A DNA stretch of 64,000 nucleotides, taken from the NCBI GenBank assembly GCA_020848835.1, contig JADLHJ010000037.1, forward strand, positions 29,133 to 93,132. The letters run 5' to 3'. Of this stretch, positions 3,007-32,320 are shown piece after piece (position 1 is the first letter of the stretch; the number at the start of each line of letters is the position of its first letter). Made by a program: the position numbers and the translations under genes. A model generated the notes under the pieces. It saw only the letters and a program-made list of their open reading frames with translations. It had not been told where the DNA came from and did not search any database. Source of the stretch: Candidatus Hydrogenedentota bacterium. Its GTDB lineage: Bacteria > Hydrogenedentota > Hydrogenedentia > Hydrogenedentales > SLHB01.

Positions 3007-4209
3007 TTACGTACTTCTCAGTTGAAGGTAAACGCGATCTACGGCGTCAACGGCGGAATCGAAGGAGAACTCGTCATGCGCGATGTCGCGAATCCGGGAC
3101 TCGTCGTAATACGAATAGTTCGTGATCATGTAGTTCAGTGCACGGACCAGGTCTTCCGTGTTATCTGGCTCGATGATCTCTCCGGTGGTTCCGGGCCGAA
3201 CAAATTCGGCGAGGCTGCCAATATTCGATACCAGCACCGGGCGGCCGTAGGCGTAGGCCATGTATTTGATTCCGCTCTGGCTGCCTTCCAGATAAGGAAG
3301 CAGGACGATGTCGCAGGCTTTGAACAAGGTCTCAACATCGCCATCGGGAACGGATTCGAACTTTGCGTTAACGGTCAGTCTGTCCCTGCATTGCGCGATG
3401 ATGGCTTCCAGTTTCTCGCGATATGCCGGATCAGTGGCCTCGCCGCGAATAAGCACAGTCATCGGTTTCGCGAGCGGAGCGTCTGCCAGCGCTTCCAGTA
3501 GCGTATGCGTTCCCTTGTAGGGACGCTGGAAACCGAAGACGAGTCCGACACACGCGTCCTTCGCGATCCCCAACACTTCGCGCGCAGACTCTTTGGTAAT
3601 CTCGGGATTCGAAGTTGCGTGATAGGTTCCATGCGAGACGACGTGCACGCGTTCGGCGTCCACGCCGAATTCGCGCACGATGCGTTCCTTAATAGCGCTG
3701 CCATGGACGATGATCGCATCAACCATTGCGCGATAGATGATGAAATAAATGATGCGGTTAAACGCGGTGTCGCGGTCGTGGGGCAGTACGTTGTGGGCAG
3801 TGTAGATTACGCGTTTGCCGAGCAGGAAGAACGCCGAATACATCAGCAGACAGCGCAACAGCGGGCGGCCAATGCTGACATCGTACACGACGCCGGAGGG
3901 TGACGACGCCACGTGTGACAGCAGTCGTGCGTAATATTTTACGAGCTTGACAAGTTCGAGAACGCGGCTGCGTTCTTTTTTGTCGTTGCCACGCAAGTTG
4001 CAAAACGTCACACCGGTTTCGTACTGCGAAGCCATGTGCATATTGCCGCCGATAAGTTCGACCTCGCGGCCTTGGCGCGCGTACGCATTGGCAACCTCGC
4101 GCACGTAGTCGGGCTGAAACCCGCTGCCCAAAATGATGCGCACGTTCTCCACCGTGCGCGTCGAGTCTTGCGGCGTGGCGGCGACGATATTTTCGTAGCT
4201 GCCGCTCAT
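3007..4209 (-). CDS. Glycosyltransferase family 4
   Basis: A 400-residue GT-B enzyme. The N-terminal half has 'VRIILGSGFQPDYVREVANAYARQGREVELIGG' and 'KRVIYTAHNVLPHDRD'; the C-terminal GT4 domain shows 'LVFGFQRPYKGTHTLLEAL', 'ACDIVLLPYLEGSQSGIKYMAYAYGRPVLVSNIGSLAEFV' and 'GEIIEPDNTEDLVRAL'. The ATG overlaps the stop of the O-antigen ligase gene (ATGA), so it is translationally coupled. The protein is cytosolic or peripheral at the inner membrane and should extend the lipid-linked oligosaccharide. It differs enough from the neighbouring GT4 (no Cys cluster) to suggest a different donor or acceptor. Confidence 0.88.
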   Translation of the reverse strand: MSGSYENIVAATPQDSTRTVENVRIILGSGFQPDYVREVANAYARQGREVELIGGNMHMASQYETGVTFCNLRGNDKKERSRVLELVKLVKYYARLLSHVASSPSGVVYDVSIGRPLLRCLLMYSAFFLLGKRVIYTAHNVLPHDRDTAFNRIIYFIIYRAMVDAIIVHGSAIKERIVREFGVDAERVHVVSHGTYHATSNPEITKESAREVLGIAKDACVGLVFGFQRPYKGTHTLLEALADAPLAKPMTVLIRGEATDPAYREKLEAIIAQCRDRLTVNAKFESVPDGDVETLFKACDIVLLPYLEGSQSGIKYMAYAYGRPVLVSNIGSLAEFVRPGTTGEIIEPDNTEDLVRALNYMITNYSYYDESRIRDIAHDEFSFDSAVDAVDRVYLQLRST

Positions 4210-5576
4210 CGCAGGTCTCTGCGCACAGGCGCGAGCGCATACAATGCGGGGGCGCTGAAACGCCGCCGATCACGCACGCGGGCGCGTTCCTGCACCATCT
4301 CGGGCGCGGCGACAAATCCGAAATATGCGAGCGTGACGAACTGCACGAAGGTCTGCATCGTGGGTACGAGCAGGGTGGATTCCGAAAGTCCGCCAACTAC
4401 GCCAAGCAGCAACAAGCCGCCCAGGAATGCGAAGTGAGGGTCTTGCGTCGCCCGGAAATACTGAAACGCGCGGCCCATGCCGATGAACTGAACTACCGTG
4501 TAGGAAAGCATCCCGACCAATCCGAGACCGAGCAACACTTCCAGGAACACCGAATGACATTCCGCGATGGGCCAACCTTGTCGATCGGAAATTTCGCGGA
4601 TGTGTTCGAGTGTGAAGAAACTGCCGTAGCCGTAACCGAGGAAAGGCTTCGCTTCCGCGTATTCCAACAAGTTTTGCCACAAGGGAAGCCTCCCCGTGAG
4701 CGACATCGTGCCCGAGATATCTTGGTCCGTGCGGCCCATGAGCAATCCACGTTCGAGCGTAGGGGCGACAAGGTCGCTTTCGACCAAAAGCACGAAAAGC
4801 AACGCGGTGATCCCGAGCACGCTGACATAAAGAAAGCGGCGCGATTTGCCGTATACGAGGAATGCGTAGACCGCGAAGGTCACAAGGAACGCCAGCAGCG
4901 ATGTGCGCGACTTGGTCAGCATTAGAAATAGAAACGCGAACCCTGCGCACCCGACGTACATCGCCTTCCCGCGCTTCTCAAACTGCGCGGCCGTCATTGC
5001 TGCCAGCACAATCAGCGAACAGTTCACGCCCTGATTATTTGGATGCAGGGTGCCGGCGAAGCGATAGCGCTCAGCCGCGGGCGTAAAGGTGCTCAGGGCG
5101 ATCTCGGAGACCACACCGGAAAGCAGATAGACGAAGGAACTAAACAAAAGGAACAACATGATCTCGCGCGGCGTGAGGGTACACGCGATCGCAAGCGCGC
5201 CAGAACATAGCGTCGCGATAACCACGAGCCGGCGCGCGCTGAGCGCGCGATCATCCGCCCAAGTAACGCTGAGCAGCATCCAAATCAAGAAGAACAACAC
5301 AAGCGACGCCAGCGCGCCGTTCATCTGCAAGTTGTTGCGTTTGCCAAGCGCCAGCACCACGACACCAAACAAACCCGCGCCGAGGAAGCCGATCTGACGC
5401 TTCACATTTCCTTCCGACGCGTGTTTTTCCAAGGTATCACCGGAGGGGAGGTAGTCCGCTTGAATGGATGCAGACCGCAGCGGGTCGTGCAACGCGATAA
5501 AGAAACACGCCGTGAGCAAGATGAACGTGAGCCACGGGATGGGGCGCGGATTTGCAACGGTCGACAGCGCCGTCAT
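4206..5576 (-). CDS. O-antigen ligase/polymerase family membrane protein (Wzy-like)
   Basis: A multi-pass membrane protein with about ten to twelve hydrophobic segments. The large periplasmic loop near residues 300-345 carries 'TMSLTGRLPLWQNLLEYAEAKPFLGYGYGSFF', the conserved Wzy_C/WaaL-like pattern ('GR...W......PF.GYG') of O-antigen ligases and EPS polymerases. The track starts at 5639, but an ATG at 5576 overlaps the flippase stop (ATGA) and gives MTALSTVANPRPIPWLTF, in line with the other junctions of this operon; I use it. It probably polymerises repeat units on the periplasmic face after flipping. Ligase versus polymerase cannot be separated by sequence, but the EPS setting with Wza/Wzc-like partners favours polymerase. 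Confidence 0.85.
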   Translation of the reverse strand: MTALSTVANPRPIPWLTFILLTACFFIALHDPLRSASIQADYLPSGDTLEKHASEGNVKRQIGFLGAGLFGVVVLALGKRNNLQMNGALASLVLFFLIWMLLSVTWADDRALSARRLVVIATLCSGALAIACTLTPREIMLFLLFSSFVYLLSGVVSEIALSTFTPAAERYRFAGTLHPNNQGVNCSLIVLAAMTAAQFEKRGKAMYVGCAGFAFLFLMLTKSRTSLLAFLVTFAVYAFLVYGKSRRFLYVSVLGITALLFVLLVESDLVAPTLERGLLMGRTDQDISGTMSLTGRLPLWQNLLEYAEAKPFLGYGYGSFFTLEHIREISDRQGWPIAECHSVFLEVLLGLGLVGMLSYTVVQFIGMGRAFQYFRATQDPHFAFLGGLLLLGVVGGLSESTLLVPTMQTFVQFVTLAYFGFVAAPEMVQERARVRDRRRFSAPALYALAPVRRDLR

Positions 5577-6904
5577 GCGGGCACCAACCCTTCCATGTGA
5601 CGCGTGCAATACCAAAACGTCGCTACGCGCGCTGAGCATGCCGCGGCATTTGTGATCAATTGTCCCACTGCGGCGCCAATGGGTCCGTAGGCTTGTGCCA
5701 GCCAGACGCCGCAGAACAGCAGCATCGCAAACGCGACGACGTTTACTTTGAAGTCAACGTCTGCGCGGCGCAGCGCGAAGAGCCCGCGCGAGAACGCAAA
5801 TGAAAACGCGGCAGTGGCGAGGTTTAATGAAAGTAGCGCCGCAAGGTGGCCGCTGTTGGCATATTTCGACCCGTAGACCCAACCAACCAGCGTGTCGCCG
5901 ATCAGGAACATGGTCAGGCCAAAGAGCAGCAAACCGCCGCCGTAGACAATGCTGAGCCGGTAAACTTCGCGGCGTAGACGCGCCGTGCCTCCGTCCGCAT
6001 GTGCGTGCATGATGCGCGGACCCAGAACATTCTGGATACCGAAGACCACCGGATTGATCACTGCCACAATACCGAGAGCGGCGCCCCAGGCGGCCGTGGT
6101 TTCAGCGCCGTGAAATGCGGCGAGTATCCACGGATACATGTTGATACTGACGCACCACAATAACGCGCTGAAAAAGAGCCAGCGTGTCGAATGCCACTCC
6201 TGCGAGAAATCACGCATTGCGGTGCGGGGCTGCAATACCAGTTGCGACTTGTGCTGTTGATACCAGCCAAGCGCGCCCATCGCGCAGACCAAACCGATTA
6301 GTATGAATACTGTCGTCGCGTTAAGCAGATTGACGTAACCCAACGCGGCGATTCCACCCAACTGCCCTGTCGCCACGAACACATCCAATGCAAGCGCGGT
6401 AAGGCCTTTGAGCTGCGCGAATGCGACTTGGCGCGCAAAGTCGCGTAGCAACATGAACGAGATGGCTGCGCCGAACGCGACGAGCATGTGCGATAGGGCC
6501 ATCGAAAGTGCTGCCGCACCGAGCGCAATTCCAGCAACAATCGCGCAAATTGCAACCGGCGCAATCATCGCAAGTAACTGCAAAAGCGACGAACCCGTTA
6601 GCGATGGTATTTGTTCGCGCGATGCGCCCGGATAACGCACGATATAGGGCGTGCAAACCAAGGATGCCTGCAAAGTGAGCAAGATTGTGTACGCATTGAA
6701 TCCGAGCATGTAGAGGCCGAAGTCTTCCTTAAGACACATACGGCCCAACATCACACTCGTCGCGAAAGTGGAGCCGCTGGCGATCAACTGGTCCGCAAGC
6801 GTAAACGCACCGTTGCCAAACAAGCGCGACGACACCTTTGCGCGCAAGACGTCAATCATCCGCGCAGGCGGTGCTGACATCGCTATTTGGCCGGCTTTAC
6901 TCAT
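5573..6904 (-). CDS. Polysaccharide flippase (Wzx/MOP superfamily)
   Basis: A 443-residue membrane protein with about 12-14 predicted helices and the N-terminal signature of Wzx-like flippases ('LFGNGAFTLADQLIASGSTFATSVMLGRMCLKEDFGLYML'). It should translocate undecaprenyl-diphosphate-linked repeat units across the inner membrane. The start ATG at 6904 follows the sugar transferase stop after 9 bases, and its stop overlaps the polymerase ATG. Position between the initiating sugar transferase and the polymerase matches a Wzx/Wzy-dependent pathway. Confidence 0.88.
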   Translation of the reverse strand: MSKAGQIAMSAPPARMIDVLRAKVSSRLFGNGAFTLADQLIASGSTFATSVMLGRMCLKEDFGLYMLGFNAYTILLTLQASLVCTPYIVRYPGASREQIPSLTGSSLLQLLAMIAPVAICAIVAGIALGAAALSMALSHMLVAFGAAISFMLLRDFARQVAFAQLKGLTALALDVFVATGQLGGIAALGYVNLLNATTVFILIGLVCAMGALGWYQQHKSQLVLQPRTAMRDFSQEWHSTRWLFFSALLWCVSINMYPWILAAFHGAETTAAWGAALGIVAVINPVVFGIQNVLGPRIMHAHADGGTARLRREVYRLSIVYGGGLLLFGLTMFLIGDTLVGWVYGSKYANSGHLAALLSLNLATAAFSFAFSRGLFALRRADVDFKVNVVAFAMLLFCGVWLAQAYGPIGAAVGQLITNAAACSARVATFWYCTRHMEGLVPA

Positions 6905-6913
6905 TGCTCTGGA

Positions 6914-7627
6914 CTAGACTGCGCCCCGTTGCGCGAGTACGGCGGGGATGGTCTGCAATAACAACTTGAGATCGAGCCAGAGCGAATGCTTCTCGATGTA
7001 CTCGAGGTCGAGCCGCACCCAGCGATCGAAGTCTTTGTCGTGGCGGCAGGTGACTTGCCAGATGCAGGTCAAGCCAGGTTTCACATCCAGCCGCCGCCAA
7101 TGCCAATGGTCATAACTCTTTTCTTCGGTCTTGGGTAGCGGGCGGGGTCCGACAAGGCTCATGTCGCCTTTTAATACGTTGAAGAGCTGTGGTAACTCGT
7201 CGAGGCTTGTTTTGCGGATGAAGCGGCCGATCGCTGTGACGCGCGGATCGTTCGTCATTTTGAATGCGACGCCACTGCGCTCATTGAACTTCATCAACTC
7301 TGCCTTCCGCGCTTCGGCATCCACCGACATGCTCCGAAACTTATAAAGGTTGAACGGCTTGCCACCGAGCCCTCCGCGCTTTTGTGCAAACAGTATTGGG
7401 CCGCGCGACGTCACCTTGATGGCGATCGCTACCGCGAGCATCACCGGCGACGCGGCAAGCAGCACGGCAGATGCGCCGACCACGTCGAGAGCGCGTTTCC
7501 ATCTCGGAAACGGCTTTGCGAACAAGGTGTGGCTTGAATCCGGCACGATGCGGGCTTCGAAGCGAACCGCACGTGACGAACGATTCTCCTGAACCGCGAG
7601 ATTGTGTTGAAGTGCTGCGTTGCTCAT
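6914..7627 (-). CDS. Undecaprenyl-phosphate sugar transferase (initiating polyprenyl-P sugar phosphotransferase)
   Basis: A 237-residue short-form bacterial sugar transferase. One hydrophobic segment (about residues 46-70, 'VVGASAVLLAASPVMLAVAIAIKV') is followed by the family hallmark sequence: 'GPILFAQKRGG', 'LYKFRSM', 'RFIRKTSLDELPQLFNVLKGDMSLVGPRP'. The SLDELPQ Asp-Glu pair is the catalytic signature. It lacks the long N-terminal multi-pass domain of WbaP/WcaJ, so it is the compact form. It transfers sugar-1-phosphate to undecaprenyl phosphate, the first committed step of repeat-unit assembly. The gene ends 9 bases before the flippase start and begins 6 bases after the GGDEF-like gene. Confidence 0.93.
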   Translation of the reverse strand: MSNAALQHNLAVQENRSSRAVRFEARIVPDSSHTLFAKPFPRWKRALDVVGASAVLLAASPVMLAVAIAIKVTSRGPILFAQKRGGLGGKPFNLYKFRSMSVDAEARKAELMKFNERSGVAFKMTNDPRVTAIGRFIRKTSLDELPQLFNVLKGDMSLVGPRPLPKTEEKSYDHWHWRRLDVKPGLTCIWQVTCRHDKDFDRWVRLDLEYIEKHSLWLDLKLLLQTIPAVLAQRGAV

Positions 7628-7633
7628 GGTGGG

Positions 7634-8110
7634 TTATTCCTGTGGCTTTGCCGTCATCGCATCAATGCGATCGGCCGGATATTCGTACATGGCGCAGGAT
7701 AGGCTGGCATTGCCCGCTGCCGATCCCGACTCCTGATAGTTTTCGTAGAACAAGGCATCAATTTTTTGAACTAGACCGCGCGCACCGGCGACGGTCGTAT
7801 ACGGAAGGATCACGGCGATGCGTTCGCCCAGCCAGCCCTTCGTGTCGCATGCGCGCGTGCGTTGCATCAGCGCTACCGTCAATGCACGTTGCGCGCGCGC
7901 GCAGTCCACTTCGTTTTCCGCTTCTTCGATGGTGAACGCGATCATCGTAAAGATGAACCGCGAACGCTCCGTGCGTGCGCGCTCAATTACGAGTTGGCGT
8001 TCAAACGCCGCCGTAGAAAGCAGTTCGACCGGCGCAGGCGATTGGCTTTCCCGCGAGAAAAGCCTTAGAAGCGTTGGCCTGTTTTGTGCTTGAGTATTTA
8101 TGGCATGCAC
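7634..8110 (-). CDS. Degenerate GGDEF-like protein in the EPS operon
   Basis: A 158-residue protein. The central pattern 'AAFERQLVIERARTERSRFIFTMIAFTIEE' resembles the first strand of nucleotidyl-cyclase (GGDEF) folds, and 'GWLGERIAVILPYTTVAGARGLVQKIDALF' resembles the 'G.DEF...LP.......A...A..I' segment. There is no GGDEF active-site loop (the site reads GWLGERIAV), so diguanylate cyclase activity is unlikely. Small proteins of this kind are often found just before the initiating sugar transferase in EPS loci, where a regulatory role is possible. The start is GTG at 8110; the ribosome site is weak. The family call is moderate and the function is inference. Confidence 0.6.
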   Translation of the reverse strand: MHAINTQAQNRPTLLRLFSRESQSPAPVELLSTAAFERQLVIERARTERSRFIFTMIAFTIEEAENEVDCARAQRALTVALMQRTRACDTKGWLGERIAVILPYTTVAGARGLVQKIDALFYENYQESGSAAGNASLSCAMYEYPADRIDAMTAKPQE

Positions 8111-8168: not shown

Positions 8169-8903
8169 TTAGAGTTTTCGGTATATAAAATTGGGGATGA
8201 AGTGGCGCCGCTTGTTCAGCACTACGCCGATTACATTTCCGTTTTGAGCGGTCAGTTGATCGACCGCGTTGCGCACCACTTGCCAGCGCGACTCACCGGC
8301 ATTGACGATTAACACGGTACCGTCCACGACGGGAGACATCAGCACGGCGTCCATGCTTTCCGACATGGGCGGTGTATCAATAACAATCAGGTCGTACTGT
8401 TTGCGCATGCGCCGCAAGGTATTTCCAAACCGAGCGGACGATGCCAAAGCGGCCAGTGCGTCGCGCGTAAGATTGAGTTGACTCACGGCAATTGGCGGTT
8501 CATCGAGACGGTGCACGTATTCGGAGATCGGCGCGTTCTGAAATGTCGCCGCTTCCCAGCCGCGCGAAACGCCGTTCTGGAGCACGCGCGTCGAACATCC
8601 GGATTGCCAAGTACCCAGCAATAGCACGCGCCGGGCTAGATGCTTCGCCGCGAGACGCGCGAGTTCAAATGAATACGTAAAACCTTGATCGCCAGGCTCA
8701 AGCGCGGCAATGGACACAATCTTTCCGGGGCGGTTGCCGAGCGTCGCCTCGATACGCTGATGCAACGCGAGTATTTTCTCGGCAAAAGGTTTCGGTGTTT
8801 TCGCGAACGGCTGCGCGTGTACGACCGAAATCGCGGGGTTGCGATCCGGGGTGTCTTCGAACTCGATGCCGTTCAGTTCGAGTGCTTCGAATATCCGGCT
8901 CAT
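8169..8903 (-). CDS. BY-kinase/ParA-like EPS protein lacking a Walker A motif (XrtA tyrosine-autokinase-like)
   Basis: About 244 residues from the ATG at 8903, which overlaps the ATPase stop (ATGA). The track start at 9050 adds an implausible basic leader inside the upstream gene. The fold resembles cytosolic CpsD/Wzc kinase domains: 'MSRIFEALELNG' is the usual short N-terminus, 'ARRVLLLGTWQSG' corresponds to strand A', and 'KQYDLIVIDTPPMSESMDAVLMSPVVDGTVLIV' is a clear Walker B (DTPP) region. The segment where GxGKS/T should lie reads 'ALEPGDQGFTYSFELARLAA', with no GK[ST]. The C-terminus 'RRHFIPNFIYRKL' has one Tyr, not a cluster. It therefore looks like a non-catalytic partner of the chain-length protein, probably controlling EPS polymerisation without ATP hydrolysis. 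Confidence 0.75.
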   Translation of the reverse strand: MSRIFEALELNGIEFEDTPDRNPAISVVHAQPFAKTPKPFAEKILALHQRIEATLGNRPGKIVSIAALEPGDQGFTYSFELARLAAKHLARRVLLLGTWQSGCSTRVLQNGVSRGWEAATFQNAPISEYVHRLDEPPIAVSQLNLTRDALAALASSARFGNTLRRMRKQYDLIVIDTPPMSESMDAVLMSPVVDGTVLIVNAGESRWQVVRNAVDQLTAQNGNVIGVVLNKRRHFIPNFIYRKL

Positions 8904-9871
8904 CGTACTGCTTCTCCGGTTTCGGCATTGGCGGGTTGCGTAACCTGCGTATTGGTAACATGGCCAGAGGCGGACGCGGTCGCGTAGACAAACGCGCCCA
9001 TCAGTCCAAACAGGACGGTTGCCAGAAGGCCAGCCGTCAACCAGCGCCATGAACGTACGCGGGGTACAGCGGAGAATTCTTGAACAACCGACCTGGTAAT
9101 TCTCTTGGTTACAGGCTTTGCCTTATATCCGTAGCCATTAATCAACGCGTTGTCACACAACACGTTGATTTCTCGGGGAAAGCCTTTGGCCGCGTGCGCA
9201 ACCGCTTTCATGGCGGACAGAGTCATCACTTTCTCTGGGTTGCCGTCCGCATGCATGATGCGGTGGTTGATGTAATCGATGCTTTCCTTGACCGTTAGCG
9301 GGTTCAGGCGCGCGCGCACCGCAACGCGCTGCCGTATCTGGCGCAATTCGTGGGTGTTTAACTTCTCGTCCAGTTCCGGCTGACCCGTGAGAATGATCTG
9401 CAGCAGCTTTTGGTCTGGCAGTTCGAGATTTGAAATGAGATGCAGCTTCTTGAACGTCTCGACCGGCATCTGGTGCGCTTCATCAATGACGAGTACCACG
9501 CGCCGGTTTCGGCCCAACTCGTAGATTAATTCGCGCGTGAGCGCCTGTAATTTCCAGTACTCGGACTGGGCGCGGCTATCCACATCGAACTGATCGAGCA
9601 GATAGGTCAACAGCGAGTCAAAAGTTTGGTTCGAGTTGAAAAGGTAGATCGCTCGCACCTGTGATTTACGGATGCGTTCCAGATACGTGCGCAAGACTGT
9701 CGTCTTGCCCGTGCCAACTTCTCCCGTGAGTGAAATGAAACCAAGCCCCTTGTCTACGCCGTACAGCACGGACGCCAAGGCCTCTCGGTGTCCCTTGCTC
9801 ATATAAAAAAACTCGGGGTCCGGCGCGATATGAAACGGCTCTTTGCTCAAGCCATAGAAACCTAGATACAT
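8900..9871 (-). CDS. ExeA-like AAA ATPase with C-terminal membrane anchor (XrtA-associated ATPase-like)
   Basis: A 323-residue protein beginning 'MYLGFYGLSKEPFHIAPDPEFFYMSKGHREAL', the standard N-terminus of general-secretion ExeA/GspA-type and EPS-associated AAA proteins. Walker A is GEVGTGKT near residue 50, Walker B 'VVLVIDEAHQM' near 128, and sensor-like 'LTGQPELDEKL' follows. A single hydrophobic segment near residue 277 (WLTAGLLATVLFGLMGAFVYA) anchors it, leaving a short tail. The ATG at 9871 overlaps the chain-length gene by ten bases; the track start at 9922 lies deeper inside that gene. In XrtA-type EPS loci an ATPase of this family accompanies chain-length and export proteins. Its exact role there is not established. 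Confidence 0.85.
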   Translation of the reverse strand: MYLGFYGLSKEPFHIAPDPEFFYMSKGHREALASVLYGVDKGLGFISLTGEVGTGKTTVLRTYLERIRKSQVRAIYLFNSNQTFDSLLTYLLDQFDVDSRAQSEYWKLQALTRELIYELGRNRRVVLVIDEAHQMPVETFKKLHLISNLELPDQKLLQIILTGQPELDEKLNTHELRQIRQRVAVRARLNPLTVKESIDYINHRIMHADGNPEKVMTLSAMKAVAHAAKGFPREINVLCDNALINGYGYKAKPVTKRITRSVVQEFSAVPRVRSWRWLTAGLLATVLFGLMGAFVYATASASGHVTNTQVTQPANAETGEAVR

Positions 9872-11448
9872 GCCTTGTACTCCTTGTCGGAAACGGACAC
9901 GAGTACGGGAACGCCGACCCATTTCTCCACGTGCTCGGGGGAATTGATCGAATCGTCGAAGTATTCCAGCGTGAGCACGAAGCTAAATCCCGCGAAGAGC
10001 GCCAGAAAAACTCCCAGCGCGAGATTCAGTAGTTTCTTCGGCTTTACTGGCACCATGGGCATCGTCGCTGGTTGGACAATACTGACGTTCGATACACGAT
10101 CCACATCCAATGCCGTGGAAATTCTCGCGCGTTGTAGACTGTCGCGGTACTGTTCGTAATCCTTTTCCGCGAGGGTCACGTCGCGTTCCAACGCGGCGAG
10201 GTCCGTGGCGCGGCCCGTCAGTGTTCTAAGTTCCGCCTGCTGCTTTTCCAACGACGATCTCAACGCGCTAGCTTGCGACTCGAACGCGGCCACTTGCACT
10301 CGTTCCGTTTCCAGTGTCGCCTGCAGTTGCTGATACGTTGAATCGATTCCGGTAATAATCTCAGTGTGCGTTTCGCTCTCGTTTGCGAGCGCGACCTCGG
10401 TTTCTTTGATCTGGCTGCGCACATCAATAAGCGGGCGGTGCGTTTCCGGATAACGCGCCGCCATGTCGGTTTCCTGAAGCTTCAACTGAAGCAACTTTTC
10501 CTTCATCGCATCAGCGGCATAATTGGTCATGCCCGTCGTGCGGCTAATCTCCTGCGTTTTTGGGCGCGTCCTAAGCGCATCCTCAACTCTCGCAACGCGC
10601 GCGCGAGATGCCTCCGCCTGGGCTTGCGCGTCTGCGAGCTTGTTTTCCAATTCGCTCATGTGTTCGAGCATGGTTTGTTTTTGCGTCTCGATGGCGGAAA
10701 TGCCGTTTGCCTCTCGAAATGCGCGCAGCTTCTCCTCGCTTGCGAGCAGTTCGTTGTGCAGTGCTTCAGTTTGTTCTTCGAAGAATTCCGGCGACGCCTG
10801 AGCCGCGTGTACGCGAATGTGTTCCTCCAGGTACAAATCCAAGATAGTCGCGAGGGTCTGCTGCGCCAGGGCGCGACTGGGCGACTCGAAGGAGACGGTG
10901 ATGATGTCTGTTTTCGGTTCAACGCCGACGGACAGGTTTTCCAATATGTACTTCACCGCACTCTCGCGCTCCGTGAGCGGCGTAGCGAGATCGAGGGCGA
11001 CCAGAATGCCACTGCCGGCTTTTTCCGCTTCGCGCACTTCGCGGCGAATCGCGCGCAAGTCCTGCTGCGCCTCTGCCATCGCCGGGACCGGCGGCTCGAC
11101 GTCTTCCAGTTCGTCAGGTTTTACGAGGAACGCGGCGGGGCCTATCTTCGCGACGACCTGTTCCGCGATCTCTCGGCTGGCGAGGATTGAGAGTTCGGAG
11201 TTTACTTCGTTAGCTCGATCGCGTGAAGGATATAGCGTAGGGCCGGATACCGACGGATCGACCGAGAGGTTTTCGCGACCAAGCCGTATCAACACTTTCG
11301 CGTCGGACTGATATATCTCTTGCGCAAGGTAGGTGTACACAACCACGGCGGCAATCACCATGATGAACACAGTGCCAAACGTTGTCTTGTGGCGAAAGGT
11401 AGCGCTCAGGACGTCACGCAGGGAACTTTGAATGGCATTACTGCTCAC
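9862..11448 (-). CDS. Polysaccharide chain-length determinant (Wzz/GNVR family)
   Basis: A 528-residue polysaccharide co-polymerase. The N-terminal helix near residues 22-43 ('TTFGTVFIMVIAAVVVYTY') and a C-terminal helix near 485-508 ('LLNLALGVFLALFAGFSFVL') bracket a periplasmic domain. 'YQSDAKVLIRLGREN' is the Wzz entry motif, extended coiled coil is seen about residues 215-300 and 360-450, and 'LERDVTLAEKDYEQYRDSLQRARIS' plus the Pro-rich 'PATMPMVPVKPKK' are hallmarks of the long GNVR-type PCP proteins. It has no fused kinase domain; the separate ParA-like gene downstream supplies that. It should control chain length and couple polymerisation to export. Its start overlaps the export protein stop (ATGA at 11445-11448). 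Confidence 0.92.
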   Translation of the reverse strand: MSSNAIQSSLRDVLSATFRHKTTFGTVFIMVIAAVVVYTYLAQEIYQSDAKVLIRLGRENLSVDPSVSGPTLYPSRDRANEVNSELSILASREIAEQVVAKIGPAAFLVKPDELEDVEPPVPAMAEAQQDLRAIRREVREAEKAGSGILVALDLATPLTERESAVKYILENLSVGVEPKTDIITVSFESPSRALAQQTLATILDLYLEEHIRVHAAQASPEFFEEQTEALHNELLASEEKLRAFREANGISAIETQKQTMLEHMSELENKLADAQAQAEASRARVARVEDALRTRPKTQEISRTTGMTNYAADAMKEKLLQLKLQETDMAARYPETHRPLIDVRSQIKETEVALANESETHTEIITGIDSTYQQLQATLETERVQVAAFESQASALRSSLEKQQAELRTLTGRATDLAALERDVTLAEKDYEQYRDSLQRARISTALDVDRVSNVSIVQPATMPMVPVKPKKLLNLALGVFLALFAGFSFVLTLEYFDDSINSPEHVEKWVGVPVLVSVSDKEYKACI

Positions 11449-12251
11449 GGCGCACCGCCGATCTGAATATCCGGCATCGCTGTTGCCGCGTTATTCAAAA
11501 ACTGCGATGCAAGCGCGCCGTCGTTGTCCGTCGAGCGCGGATTGACCTCATGCGTGAAGTTGTAGTGTAGCGCCCGCGGCACAATGCGATTAACGTACTG
11601 CTCTACGAATTGGTCCACCTTGTCGATGTTTGTCTGCGGCACGTAGACAATGTCGTAGGGCTCAAGTACAAACGGCTCGCTGTCCGCGGACTCGAGTGCC
11701 TTGCGGAGGTCAAGCGTCGTTCCGTATTGCTTGCCGTCGCGCTGTCGAATTACCACGACGCTATTCATCTTGCCGCTGTCTTTTTTCGGGCCGCCCGCCT
11801 GCATCACGGCTTCAAGCGCGGTGAGGCGCCCGTTAATCATCAGCAATCCAGGCGCGAGTACTTCGCCCGCGACGTATACTCGGTTGCTATCCAGGGATCC
11901 GACAACCACGGAGATCTCGGGATCGATGAGTTTGTCTTTGTACAGCGTGAGCAAATCCGCACGTAACTCGTCCGGTGTGCGGCCTTGTGCCTGCACATCG
12001 CCCACGAGTTGCAGCGAAATTTTTCCGTCGGGCCGGATTGACTGCTTGTCTTCGTTCAACTCCGGCCAATAGAGGAATTTCACCTGCAGCACGTCGCCCG
12101 GTTGCAGCGTTACTTTAGGCGCAGAAGACGCCATCGGAAACGATTCCATCGTGGGCGGTGTCGTCGTGCACGAAACGCTGCACACTACTAATGCCGCAAG
12201 TGCGACAGACACCCATGTGCGCGGGGATGGCACTACTGAAAGCAACTGCAC
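11445..12251 (-). CDS. Polysaccharide export outer-membrane lipoprotein (Wza family, SLBB)
   Basis: A 268-residue secreted protein. The leader 'SVALAALVVCSVSCTTTPP' ends in a lipobox with the acylated Cys near residue 29. 'VTLQPGDVLQVKFLYWPELNEDKQSIRPDGKISLQLVGDVQAQGRTPDEL' is the Poly_export domain, and 'VYVAGEVLAPGLLMINGRLTALEAVMQAGGPKKDSG' an SLBB domain. It lacks the extra SLBB repeats and C-terminal amphipathic helix length of E. coli Wza, so it is the short form. It is the first gene of the EPS operon; the start is GTG at 12251 with AAGGA about 8 bases upstream. Transcription is probably from the sigma-54-type promoter 120 bp upstream. Confidence 0.9.
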   Translation of the reverse strand: MQLLSVVPSPRTWVSVALAALVVCSVSCTTTPPTMESFPMASSAPKVTLQPGDVLQVKFLYWPELNEDKQSIRPDGKISLQLVGDVQAQGRTPDELRADLLTLYKDKLIDPEISVVVGSLDSNRVYVAGEVLAPGLLMINGRLTALEAVMQAGGPKKDSGKMNSVVVIRQRDGKQYGTTLDLRKALESADSEPFVLEPYDIVYVPQTNIDKVDQFVEQYVNRIVPRALHYNFTHEVNPRSTDNDGALASQFLNNAATAMPDIQIGGAP

Positions 12252-12741
12252 TACAAAATCCTTGAAAACCGGTTAGCGACTCGATGCCAAACCGCGGGCA
12301 CCAATCACCAACTGCCGACCACTAGCCCACACCTTAAATGAAAAATGTGCAAGACGTGTTAGGGCTTGCGGTTGTTACCACGCCAAAAGCGTGCCAGCTT
12401 TGATTTCGCAGTATGCTTTTAGTGGGGACATTGTTTGCACGTCGTTGGTTCTTCATGCCACAAGTGATTTGCCTTAATGAAGTTGAAGGAGGTCCACCGA
12501 GAAGAATTTTGGGCCGTACTCGCCTCGTTCTTTCGCAGGTTCCGTAGAATTAGCCAAATCCGAAATTGGCCCGAAAAGGCTACGTCACCGAAGCTTGCTT
12601 GATCCGAAAGATACATTTGTGAAGGTGCTGAACGTCAATTAAGGCATTGCTTTTTCTAACGAATTCAGGGAAATACCTGCGTAATAGACAGGGTATCGCT
12701 CGTGCGTTGCAACGTCGGAGTGCAATCGGTAGGCTCGTGAA
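12252..12741. other. Intergenic region between divergent EPS and PSCyt1 operons
   Basis: About 490 bases. Apart from the sigma-54-type site, no gene is convincing. The only track ORF here (12419-12616, minus, 65 residues) lacks a ribosome site and any recognisable pattern. The region upstream of the promoter (12400-12500) would be where an enhancer-binding activator sits, but I could not identify a clear repeated site. Confidence 0.5.
12381..12397 (-). promoter_or_regulatory. Sigma-54 (-24/-12) promoter of the EPS operon
   Basis: Minus strand reads CTGGCACGCTTTTGGCG. It carries the -24 element TGGCACG, the invariant GG and GC exactly ten bases apart, and differs from TGGCACG-N4-TTGC only at one -12 base (TGGC). 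Transcription would start near 12370, leaving a ~120-base leader before the export gene. No activator gene is in the window. Confidence 0.65.
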
Positions 12742-15714
12742 ATGTTGCCTGTCGCGACACTCTTATTTATTGCGGTATCGCAGTCTGCCGTGGGAGCGGG
12801 GCCGTCGGATTTTTTTGAAACGAAAGTCCGCCCGATACTTGTAGATAATTGCCACGAATGCCACGGACCCGAAAAGCAAAAATCCGAACTACGCCTGGAT
12901 CACATCGACTTTATTCTCAAGGGTGGTGAGGCCGGACCTGCGATCGTGCGCAACGACGCGGGTGCAAGCCGGCTTGTTCATGCCATTCGCTATACGGATC
13001 CCGATCTCCAAATGCCGCCGAACGGAAGGCTTTCCGATGAATCCGTTGCCGTGCTCGAACAATGGATCGCCGACGGCGCGTATTGGCCGGAGGAGTCTGC
13101 GCAGGCAACGCATGCGGAGAAGCCGGTATTCGACCTTGCGGCACGACGGAAATCGCACTGGGCTTGGCAACCGATCCGCGAAACTACGCCGCCTGAAACG
13201 GCCTCGACCTGGCCGCGCGACAGCATCGATAAATTTGTACTCGCGAAACTATCTGAGAATGGTCTCACGACTGCGCCGCCAGCGGACCCTGCACAGCTTG
13301 TCCGCCGCCTTCATTACGTCATCACCGGTTTGCCGCCCGATCCAGAGACGGTTCGCGCCTATTTAAAGGATCCAAGCGAGGCCGCATACGTAGCGCTTGT
13401 GGAGCGTTTACTGGCGTCGCCGCGATTCGGCGAGGCGTGGGCGCGGCACTGGCTCGATCTGACGCGATACGCGGAGACCTTTGGCTTTGAATTGGATTTC
13501 CCAATCGCTGAAGCGTGGCAGTATCGCGACTACGTCATTCGGGCGTTTAACGCGGACTTGCCTTACGATCAATTGGTCCGCGAACACATCGCCGGAGATC
13601 TATTAGAGCCGCGCGTCAATCCGGAGACGGGATTGAACGAATCCATTATTGCCACAGGCTTCTGGAATTTGATGCAGGCGCAACATGCGCCCGTGGACGT
13701 GCGGCTGGATCACGCAGACCGTGTGGACAACCAGATCGACGTACTCGGCAAGACGTTTCTCGGCATGACGATCTCGTGCGCGCGGTGTCACGATCACAAG
13801 TTCGATGCGATCTCCACCGCGGACTACTACGCATTGTCAGGCGTATTCCGCAGTGTGCGACGCCAAATCGTGCCGTTGGATCCCGCGGGCGATATTGCGC
13901 AAAGCATTTCCGATTTGTCGCCGATGCGTTCGGATACGTCTACGCAGTTGGATGCATGGCTAAAGACGCAGACGAGCGCACCTATCGTTGTATCGCAACG
14001 AGACGCGCAAAAGACAATGGATGCGCCGCCATCAAGCGCTGTGCCGTTTGCCACCTTTGCCACGTCACTTGACGGTTGGTTTACCAGTGGACAGGCGTTT
14101 GGCGATCAACCGACCGATTCGGCTGAATGGTTTGTGTCGGACGACAGACGCCCGATTCTGCTCGCGGGAGGGCAGGTGCATTCGGGCAGACTCGCACTGC
14201 GTTTGCGCGGTGCACTTCGATCGCCCAGCTTCATTCTCGATCATGCACGCATTCAAGCGCTTGTGGCAGGACGCAATGCGCAGATGCGTCTCGTTATTGA
14301 AGATTATTTTGTTCGCGAGTTTCACAATTTGCTATTTGAATCGACCGTATTGGATATCGCGCACGGAGACGAGTTGCGTTGGCTGGAGATCGCCGGCGGT
14401 CTTGAGAAATATCAAGGCTGTCGCGCGCATATTGAGTTCATTGACAATGGTGATGGCTACGTTGCGGTTGCTGAAGTCCGCTTTTCGAACGAGCTGTTCG
14501 CGCAAGTGCCCATCGAGTCCACGGCACCCGCGGCGACGGCACTCGCAAACTGGCGTGCAGGAAACGCGACTCGCGCGGAGATTGCGCTGCTCAACACGCT
14601 CATCGTGAACAATGCCACGTCTTTTCCTCAGGAGTTGCGTGATTCGTTGGACAAGTATGCGGACGCGACTTCTAAGATTCCCGAACCGGTAATGGTGCAA
14701 GCGCTGGCGGAAGGTAGTCCCGTAGAAGAACGCGTGTACATAAGGGGCAACTATAAGACACTTGGCGAAGCGACGCCGCGCCGCTTCCTTTCCGCTCTTG
14801 ATGGTGCGAACGGGCGATTCGGCACTGGAAGCGGACGACGCGAGCTCGCGGAGCAGATTGTCGTGGAGACTAATCCGTTGACGGCGCGGGTGATGGTCAA
14901 CCGCTTATGGCAGCATGTGTTCGGCCGCGGTATCGTTGCGACTACAGACAATTTCGGGGTCCTCGGCGCTGCGCCAACTCACCCGGAACTTTTAGACTAT
15001 CTTGCGCGCGACTATCAGCGGAACGGATGGTCCACGAAAGCGCTCATTCGCAAATTGGTGTTGTCATCCACATTTCGAATGGGCAGCGTCGCGGCAAATC
15101 CAGCAGATGACATGCGCGACCCGGACAACACATTACTGCACCGCATGCCGCTGCGACGTTTGACGGCAGAGTCGGTGCGGGATTCATTGCTGTTCGCAGC
15201 AGACAATCTTGACAGTACGATGTATGGCAAATCAGTTATGGCGTATATCTCACCGTTTATGGGCGGGAACCGTGCGCCCAAAGAGTCGGGCCCCATGGAC
15301 GGTGCTCGGCGGCGCAGCATCTATCTGGAGATCCGCCGCAACCATCTGCCCCAGCTTTTCATGGCCTTTGACTTTCCGACGCCGGATAGCACGCACGGCA
15401 CTCGAAACGTCTCAAACGTACCTGCCCAAGCACTCGTGCTGATGAACGATCCTTTCGTTGTTGCGCAAGCCCAAACCCTTGGCAGCAGTTTGGCGGCCCT
15501 AACCGATTCTATCGACGCACGGATAGAGGAGCTCTATTTGCGGATATTTGGGCGTACAGCGTCCGTTGACGATATTGCGCGATCCAAGGATTTCTTGTTA
15601 AAGCAAAGCAAGATATACGATGGTTCGCCCGGAACTGAGTTCTCGAATCCGCATTCATGGACTAATCTGTGCCACGCTTTATTCATGGCAAAGGATTTCA
15701 TCTATGTGGGCTAA
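12742..15714 (+). CDS. PSCyt1-DUF1549-DUF1553 domain protein (planctomycete-type cytochrome)
   Basis: A 990-residue exported protein. After a signal peptide ('[20 protein letters not shown]') comes a PSCyt1 cytochrome module with one haem-binding motif CHECH followed by '[12 protein letters not shown]'. DUF1549 spans about residues 155-370 ('[15 protein letters not shown]', '[19 protein letters not shown]', '[10 protein letters not shown]'). An internal beta-rich region lies around 430-600, and DUF1553 about 700-960 ('[20 protein letters not shown]', '[16 protein letters not shown]'). The '[10 protein letters not shown]' segment offers a second CxxCH. The DUF1501 gene follows after 20 bases, the classic pairing in planctomycetes and relatives. 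The pair is thought to act in periplasmic oxidation of (poly)saccharides, but no biochemical role is firmly established. Confidence 0.92.
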
Positions 15715-32218: not shown

Positions 32219-32320
32219 GGCACGAACCTCCTGAATTCCAGGGTGAGGAGAGCAAGGCTTGTGCCAGACATTGAATTTCGAGGGGCTCGTGCGTCCTCCC
32301 AGCGCAATTAACTTCAAATC

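Follow-up and report, generated by a model that had tools for sequence, protein, structure and literature searches.

A very probable sigma-54 promoter upstream of a Wza/Wzy-type exopolysaccharide operon in Candidatus Hydrogenedentota

The minus-strand element at positions 12381–12397 of the window, by which we mean the whole 64-kb stretch of Candidatus Hydrogenedentota DNA analysed here, is very probably a genuine sigma-54 (RpoN) promoter that drives a Wza/Wzy-type exopolysaccharide (EPS) operon and answers to an activator encoded elsewhere in the genome. This reading, drawn from sequence comparison, is very probable because the signature has been kept in front of matching operons while the surrounding DNA changed, and it is supported further by an intact rpoN and by the distribution of candidate activators, of which none lies on the contig of the window and 22 lie elsewhere. 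In the mechanism that we propose, RpoN-polymerase would wait at 12381–12397 as a closed complex, to be opened by an enhancer-binding protein whose gene lies outside the contig of the window; with opening dependent on the activator, EPS synthesis would come under all-or-none control. Such a promoter would provide a regulatory handle on EPS production in Ca. Hydrogenedentota, a phylum on whose EPS regulation we found no paper in the open-access literature, and expression of the operon would be expected to require both RpoN and a specific activator.

The element and the operon behind it

Read on the minus strand from 12397 to 12381, the element is CTGGCACGCTTTTGGCG, with a spacing of exactly ten bases between GG and GC, confirming the -24/-12 geometry claimed in a first-pass annotation of this DNA. 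It was also described there as one base from consensus, and comparison with TGGCACG-N4-TTGC gives a single mismatch, T to G just before the GC. Consensus geometry places the predicted transcription start (+1) at 12370 on the minus strand, 12 nt past the C of the -12 element. The first EPS gene begins with a GTG at 12251, 119 nt downstream of this predicted start and in good agreement with the distance of about 120 bases given earlier. The predicted 5′ leader (12252–12370, minus strand, 119 nt) has an AAGGA Shine-Dalgarno-like site just 5′ of the GTG; an RNA element within it was considered and rejected, as an Rfam search of the 119 nt gave no match. Scores of sigma-54 sites come from a 17-position matrix, approximated from the published consensus and not trained on the EPS relatives, on which the element reaches 15.5 bits. 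Two places in the window score at least 14.5 bits, 12381–12397 and 32251–32267, both on the minus strand.

The genes of the operon, all on the minus strand, mostly overlap or sit at most 60 bases apart. Gene 1 (11445–12251) encodes an outer-membrane polysaccharide export lipoprotein of the Wza type with Poly_export/SLBB domains (Pfam PF02563, PF22461) and an N-terminus that looks lipobox-like by eye, and gene 2 (9862–11448), overlapping it by 4 bases, encodes a Wzz/GNVR chain-length determinant. These are followed by an AAA_22 ATPase (gene 3, 8900–9922) that resembles the XrtA-associated ATPase TIGR03015 and scores below the cut-off of that model, a tyrosine-kinase-like ATPase (gene 4, 8169–9050) whose real start is probably downstream of the listed one, a conserved 158-aa protein of unassigned function that is present in most copies of the operon (gene 5, 7634–8110) and a sugar-phosphate transferase (gene 6, 6914–7627; PF02397, above the TIGR03025 cut-off). 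Gene 7 (5573–6904) specifies a conserved 443-aa hydrophobic protein without a Pfam match, which by its position may be flippase-like, and gene 8 (4206–5639) a Wzy_C polymerase/ligase. Two glycosyltransferases of family 4/1 (genes 9 and 10, 3007–4209 and 1785–2987), an NAD-dependent sugar epimerase/dehydratase (gene 11, 668–1756) and a glycosyltransferase-like protein (gene 12, 1–794) that runs off the window complete the visible part. The operon is longer than the 12 genes counted in the first-pass annotation, with about four more past the window edge on contig C37; from their translations these appear to encode a UDP-sugar dehydrogenase, two glycosyltransferases and a protein of the WecG/TagA type. 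Contig C78 of the same genome carries a second complete EPS operon, with about 41–78% protein identity and its own sigma-54 element, and the sister genome G001 has the C78-type operon only. Gene order is identical in the relatives and in the second copy.

The locus had also been described as XrtA-type, a label that has to be given up. No exosortase was found in the operon or on C37, the matches in the genome being on C69, C54 and C11 with a weak one on C67, and the XrtA-system models TIGR03027, TIGR03007, TIGR03015, TIGR03018 and TIGR03013 all stayed under their cut-offs in the operon. The accompanying statement that sigma-54 control is established for EPS loci of this type likewise finds no backing in the papers concerned: in Proteobacteria, sigma-54 together with PrsR is tied to PEP-CTERM genes (PMC1569441), and the EPS biosynthesis genes of Aquincola seem not to be RpoN-regulated (PMC9850573).

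Conservation across copies of the operon

Relatives of the first gene were taken from 60 genomes and the DNA upstream of them was scanned with the sigma-54 matrix. A single-protein search of named genomes found no relatives; an alignment search did find them, mostly in MAGs of Ca. Hydrogenedentota, and the host was placed on this basis. In each of the six clade copies with upstream DNA available, the best sigma-54 match within 900 bp upstream stands on the coding strand before the first gene, with scores of 15.5 bits in the window, 15.3 in the second copy of the same genome (C78), 14.8 in G001, 16.9 in G005, 14.5 in G008 and 15.3 in G021; the copy in G011, which ends at a contig edge, is outside this count. 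Three of these elements depart from the consensus on the -12 side (TGGC, TTAC, TAGC), and because the copies are related they do not amount to six independent events. The upstream DNA around the element is largely unalignable between lineages, and in a consensus-free search the block with the element came out as the top-scoring, best-conserved 17-mer (38/51), a value of 37 being exceeded in none of 40 shuffled sets. A family-specific pattern, which is descriptive only because it was derived from these very sites, is present at one mismatch in 20/20 genomes and occurs as an exact match in G005 and G021 only at the EPS operon.

On the gene tree, the element-bearing copies all fall on one side of a single branch (support 73/88). 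No comparable close coding-strand element was found upstream of the copies in G009 and G019, which belong to the same family, nor of those in G026, G032, G034, G038, G043 and G039, which belong to other families, and the element is therefore a feature of the clade. Conservation before orthologous operons, which the first-pass annotation had proposed to look for, accordingly holds within the same clade (6/6 copies) and does not extend to more distant clades.

That these distant clades retain the operon without the element means that it can be expressed by other means. Long operons, moreover, often have internal promoters. Both points favour the possibility that the operon has further promoters besides the sigma-54 one, with a constitutive internal or upstream promoter giving basal EPS synthesis that sigma-54 would only boost; against it, a scan of the intergenic DNA (12200–12800), crude for this phylum, found no site of the sigma-70 type, and we regard such an arrangement as conceivable but doubtful. 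We infer that the sigma-54 promoter would be occupied by RpoN-polymerase and that expression of the whole operon would depend on it.

RpoN, activators and the PEP-CTERM genes

The genome contains one rpoN, on contig C27, which is full length and includes region I and the RpoN box ARRTVTKYRE; its absence, named earlier as an objection to the sigma-54 reading, is thereby removed from consideration. A sigma-54-like element of 14.5 bits precedes this rpoN frame by 18 bases (L207, 7820, minus strand) and suggests possible autoregulation. Consensus sigma-54 sites precede glnB and a flagellar rod gene, which indicates that the genome makes use of canonical promoters of this class.

In 22 enhancer-binding proteins of the genome the sigma-54 interaction domain is complete, and all 22 are encoded off the contig of the window, in keeping with the earlier remark that the window has no obvious activator and that one would be encoded elsewhere. 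About 12 of them apparently have a receiver domain, four have an FHA domain and two have no sensor domain, an assignment made in part from match coordinates. A protein on contig C110 (L204, 6044–7489, minus strand), near the end of this short contig, has a sigma-54 interaction domain with GAFTGA and a long unassigned C-terminal part; no HTH domain was found in it. A PrsR-type activator was rejected: the best match to PrsR (TIGR02915) in the genome scores 414 bits against a cut-off of 502.6, and none reaches the cut-off of the model in 13 genomes. A shared enhancer upstream of the six EPS promoters was sought as inverted repeats, as dyads and as unsupervised motifs, which gave nothing above shuffled sets or an inconsistent weak motif.

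The exosortase operon on contig C69 (C69:135000–154000, L183; 12349–16190, minus strand) has a sigma-54 promoter element of its own and is headed by a receiver-less enhancer-binding protein, whose gene is followed after 16 bp by one for polysaccharide export. This type of activator locus is kept in 31 of 68 genomes of the order. A sigma-54 element lies 90–250 bp upstream in 14 of 20 such loci, and an unsupervised search of them returned an enhancer-like TTGTCA-N4-TGAnCAATT, mostly 154–191 bp upstream of the -24 element. Among the PEP-CTERM candidates of the genome, 10/16 have a sigma-54 element together with TTGTCA-N4-TGAnCAA, the latter about 106–207 bp upstream of the former (control ORFs, 3/520). 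The enhancer matrix was not trained on PEP-CTERM genes, although the C69 gene, which is counted among the ten, adjoins the training operon. The PEP-CTERM gene directly upstream of the C69 exosortase operon has the same pair of sites. Elsewhere on C69 (L198, 4231 and 4350, minus strand), a sigma-54 element and an enhancer of the PEP-CTERM type precede a non-PEP-CTERM frame that by eye resembles a diguanylate-cyclase-like fragment. The recurrence of this site pair suggests that PEP-CTERM genes form a sigma-54 regulon beyond the Proteobacteria as well, served by another enhancer and another type of activator; judged against the open-access literature, this may be a new variant. The founding paper reported sigma-54 control of PEP-CTERM genes from Proteobacteria only; the putative regulon would become predictable from sequence across the order.

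The receiver-less C69 protein could itself be the activator of a real sigma-54 promoter at 12381–12397, which would bring the EPS genes and the PEP-CTERM genes into a single regulon: it is linked to polysaccharide export and is present in 5/5 genomes that bear the EPS element. It is, however, also present in genomes without that element, and its presumed enhancer, which precedes its own operon in the majority of genomes as well as 10/16 PEP-CTERM genes, is missing from the upstream DNA of all six EPS copies, where the best match to TTGTCA-N4-TGAnCAA is 4.9 bits against 10–29 at the training sites. The missing enhancer makes the C69 protein an improbable driver of the window operon, which probably answers to a different protein or to one that recognizes a different site. 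With some hesitation, we lean towards two separate sigma-54 circuits for the extracellular matrix in Ca. Hydrogenedentota. One would comprise the PEP-CTERM genes and the exosortase operon, with TTGTCA-N4-TGAnCAA as common enhancer and the receiver-less activator encoded first in the exosortase operon replacing PrsK-PrsR; the other would comprise the duplicated Wza/Wzy EPS operons of the window and C78, with sigma-54 promoters and a different activator.

Sigma-54 control of EPS genes is already known elsewhere (PMC4641369, PMC3162934). Promoters of the -24/-12 class, with the consensus YTGGCACGrNNNTTGCW, serve cell-exterior genes (PMC3162934), and the window promoter is like them in its GG-N10-GC geometry, start-codon distance, intact RpoN and EPS target; it differs in coming from a phylum outside that experimental work. 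Exopolysaccharide operons are under sigma-54 control in the DVU0110 and DVUA0057 regulons of Desulfovibrio vulgaris (PMC4641369), and a study cited in PMC8268162 places EPS-III of Vibrio vulnificus under NtrC and RpoN. The window operon resembles these systems in that its polysaccharide genes follow a sigma-54 promoter whose activator would be a distant one, and differs from them in being known from comparative evidence. With the PrsK-PrsR system of Proteobacteria (PMC1569441; PMC9850573) it shares sigma-54 promoters tied to extracellular-matrix genes. That system, in contrast, drives PEP-CTERM genes, and the window operon has neither an exosortase nor a PEP-CTERM gene; neither a PrsR above cut-off in the 13 genomes nor a common enhancer was found.

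Chance level of the bare motif

Counts of the bare pattern are at chance level, which makes the earlier argument from consensus alone a weak one. Sites with at most one mismatch number 7 in the window against 6.5 expected, and 168 in the 6.1-Mb genome against 253 for a reversed control pattern; since neither shows an excess, we rejected motif counts as evidence. With the sigma-54 matrix, sites that reach 14.5 bits and lie within 300 bp turn up at 3/520 control ORFs, and two of these three are probably the EPS operons of the window and C78; a first-order Markov simulation gives a chance rate of 0.003 per 300 bp. If only three lineages besides that of the window are taken as independent, the probability of chance occurrence is about 2e-7, an optimistic value, as the lineages are related. 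Although equally close sites are expected about 6.5 times per 64-kb window and such sites are not enriched across the genome, it is very improbable that the match at 12381–12397 arose by chance and that transcription of the operon relies on a promoter of the sigma-70 type or of another class, given that position and strand are kept in six copies across diverged DNA, that the control rate is 3/520 and that the scan of the intergenic region found no sigma-70-type site.

The best sigma-54 site of the window by score is the one at 32251–32267 on the minus strand, an exact TGGCAC-N5-TTGCT match of 18.6 bits. It lies 32 bases before the ATG of a 226-aa reading frame, the true start of which may be further upstream.
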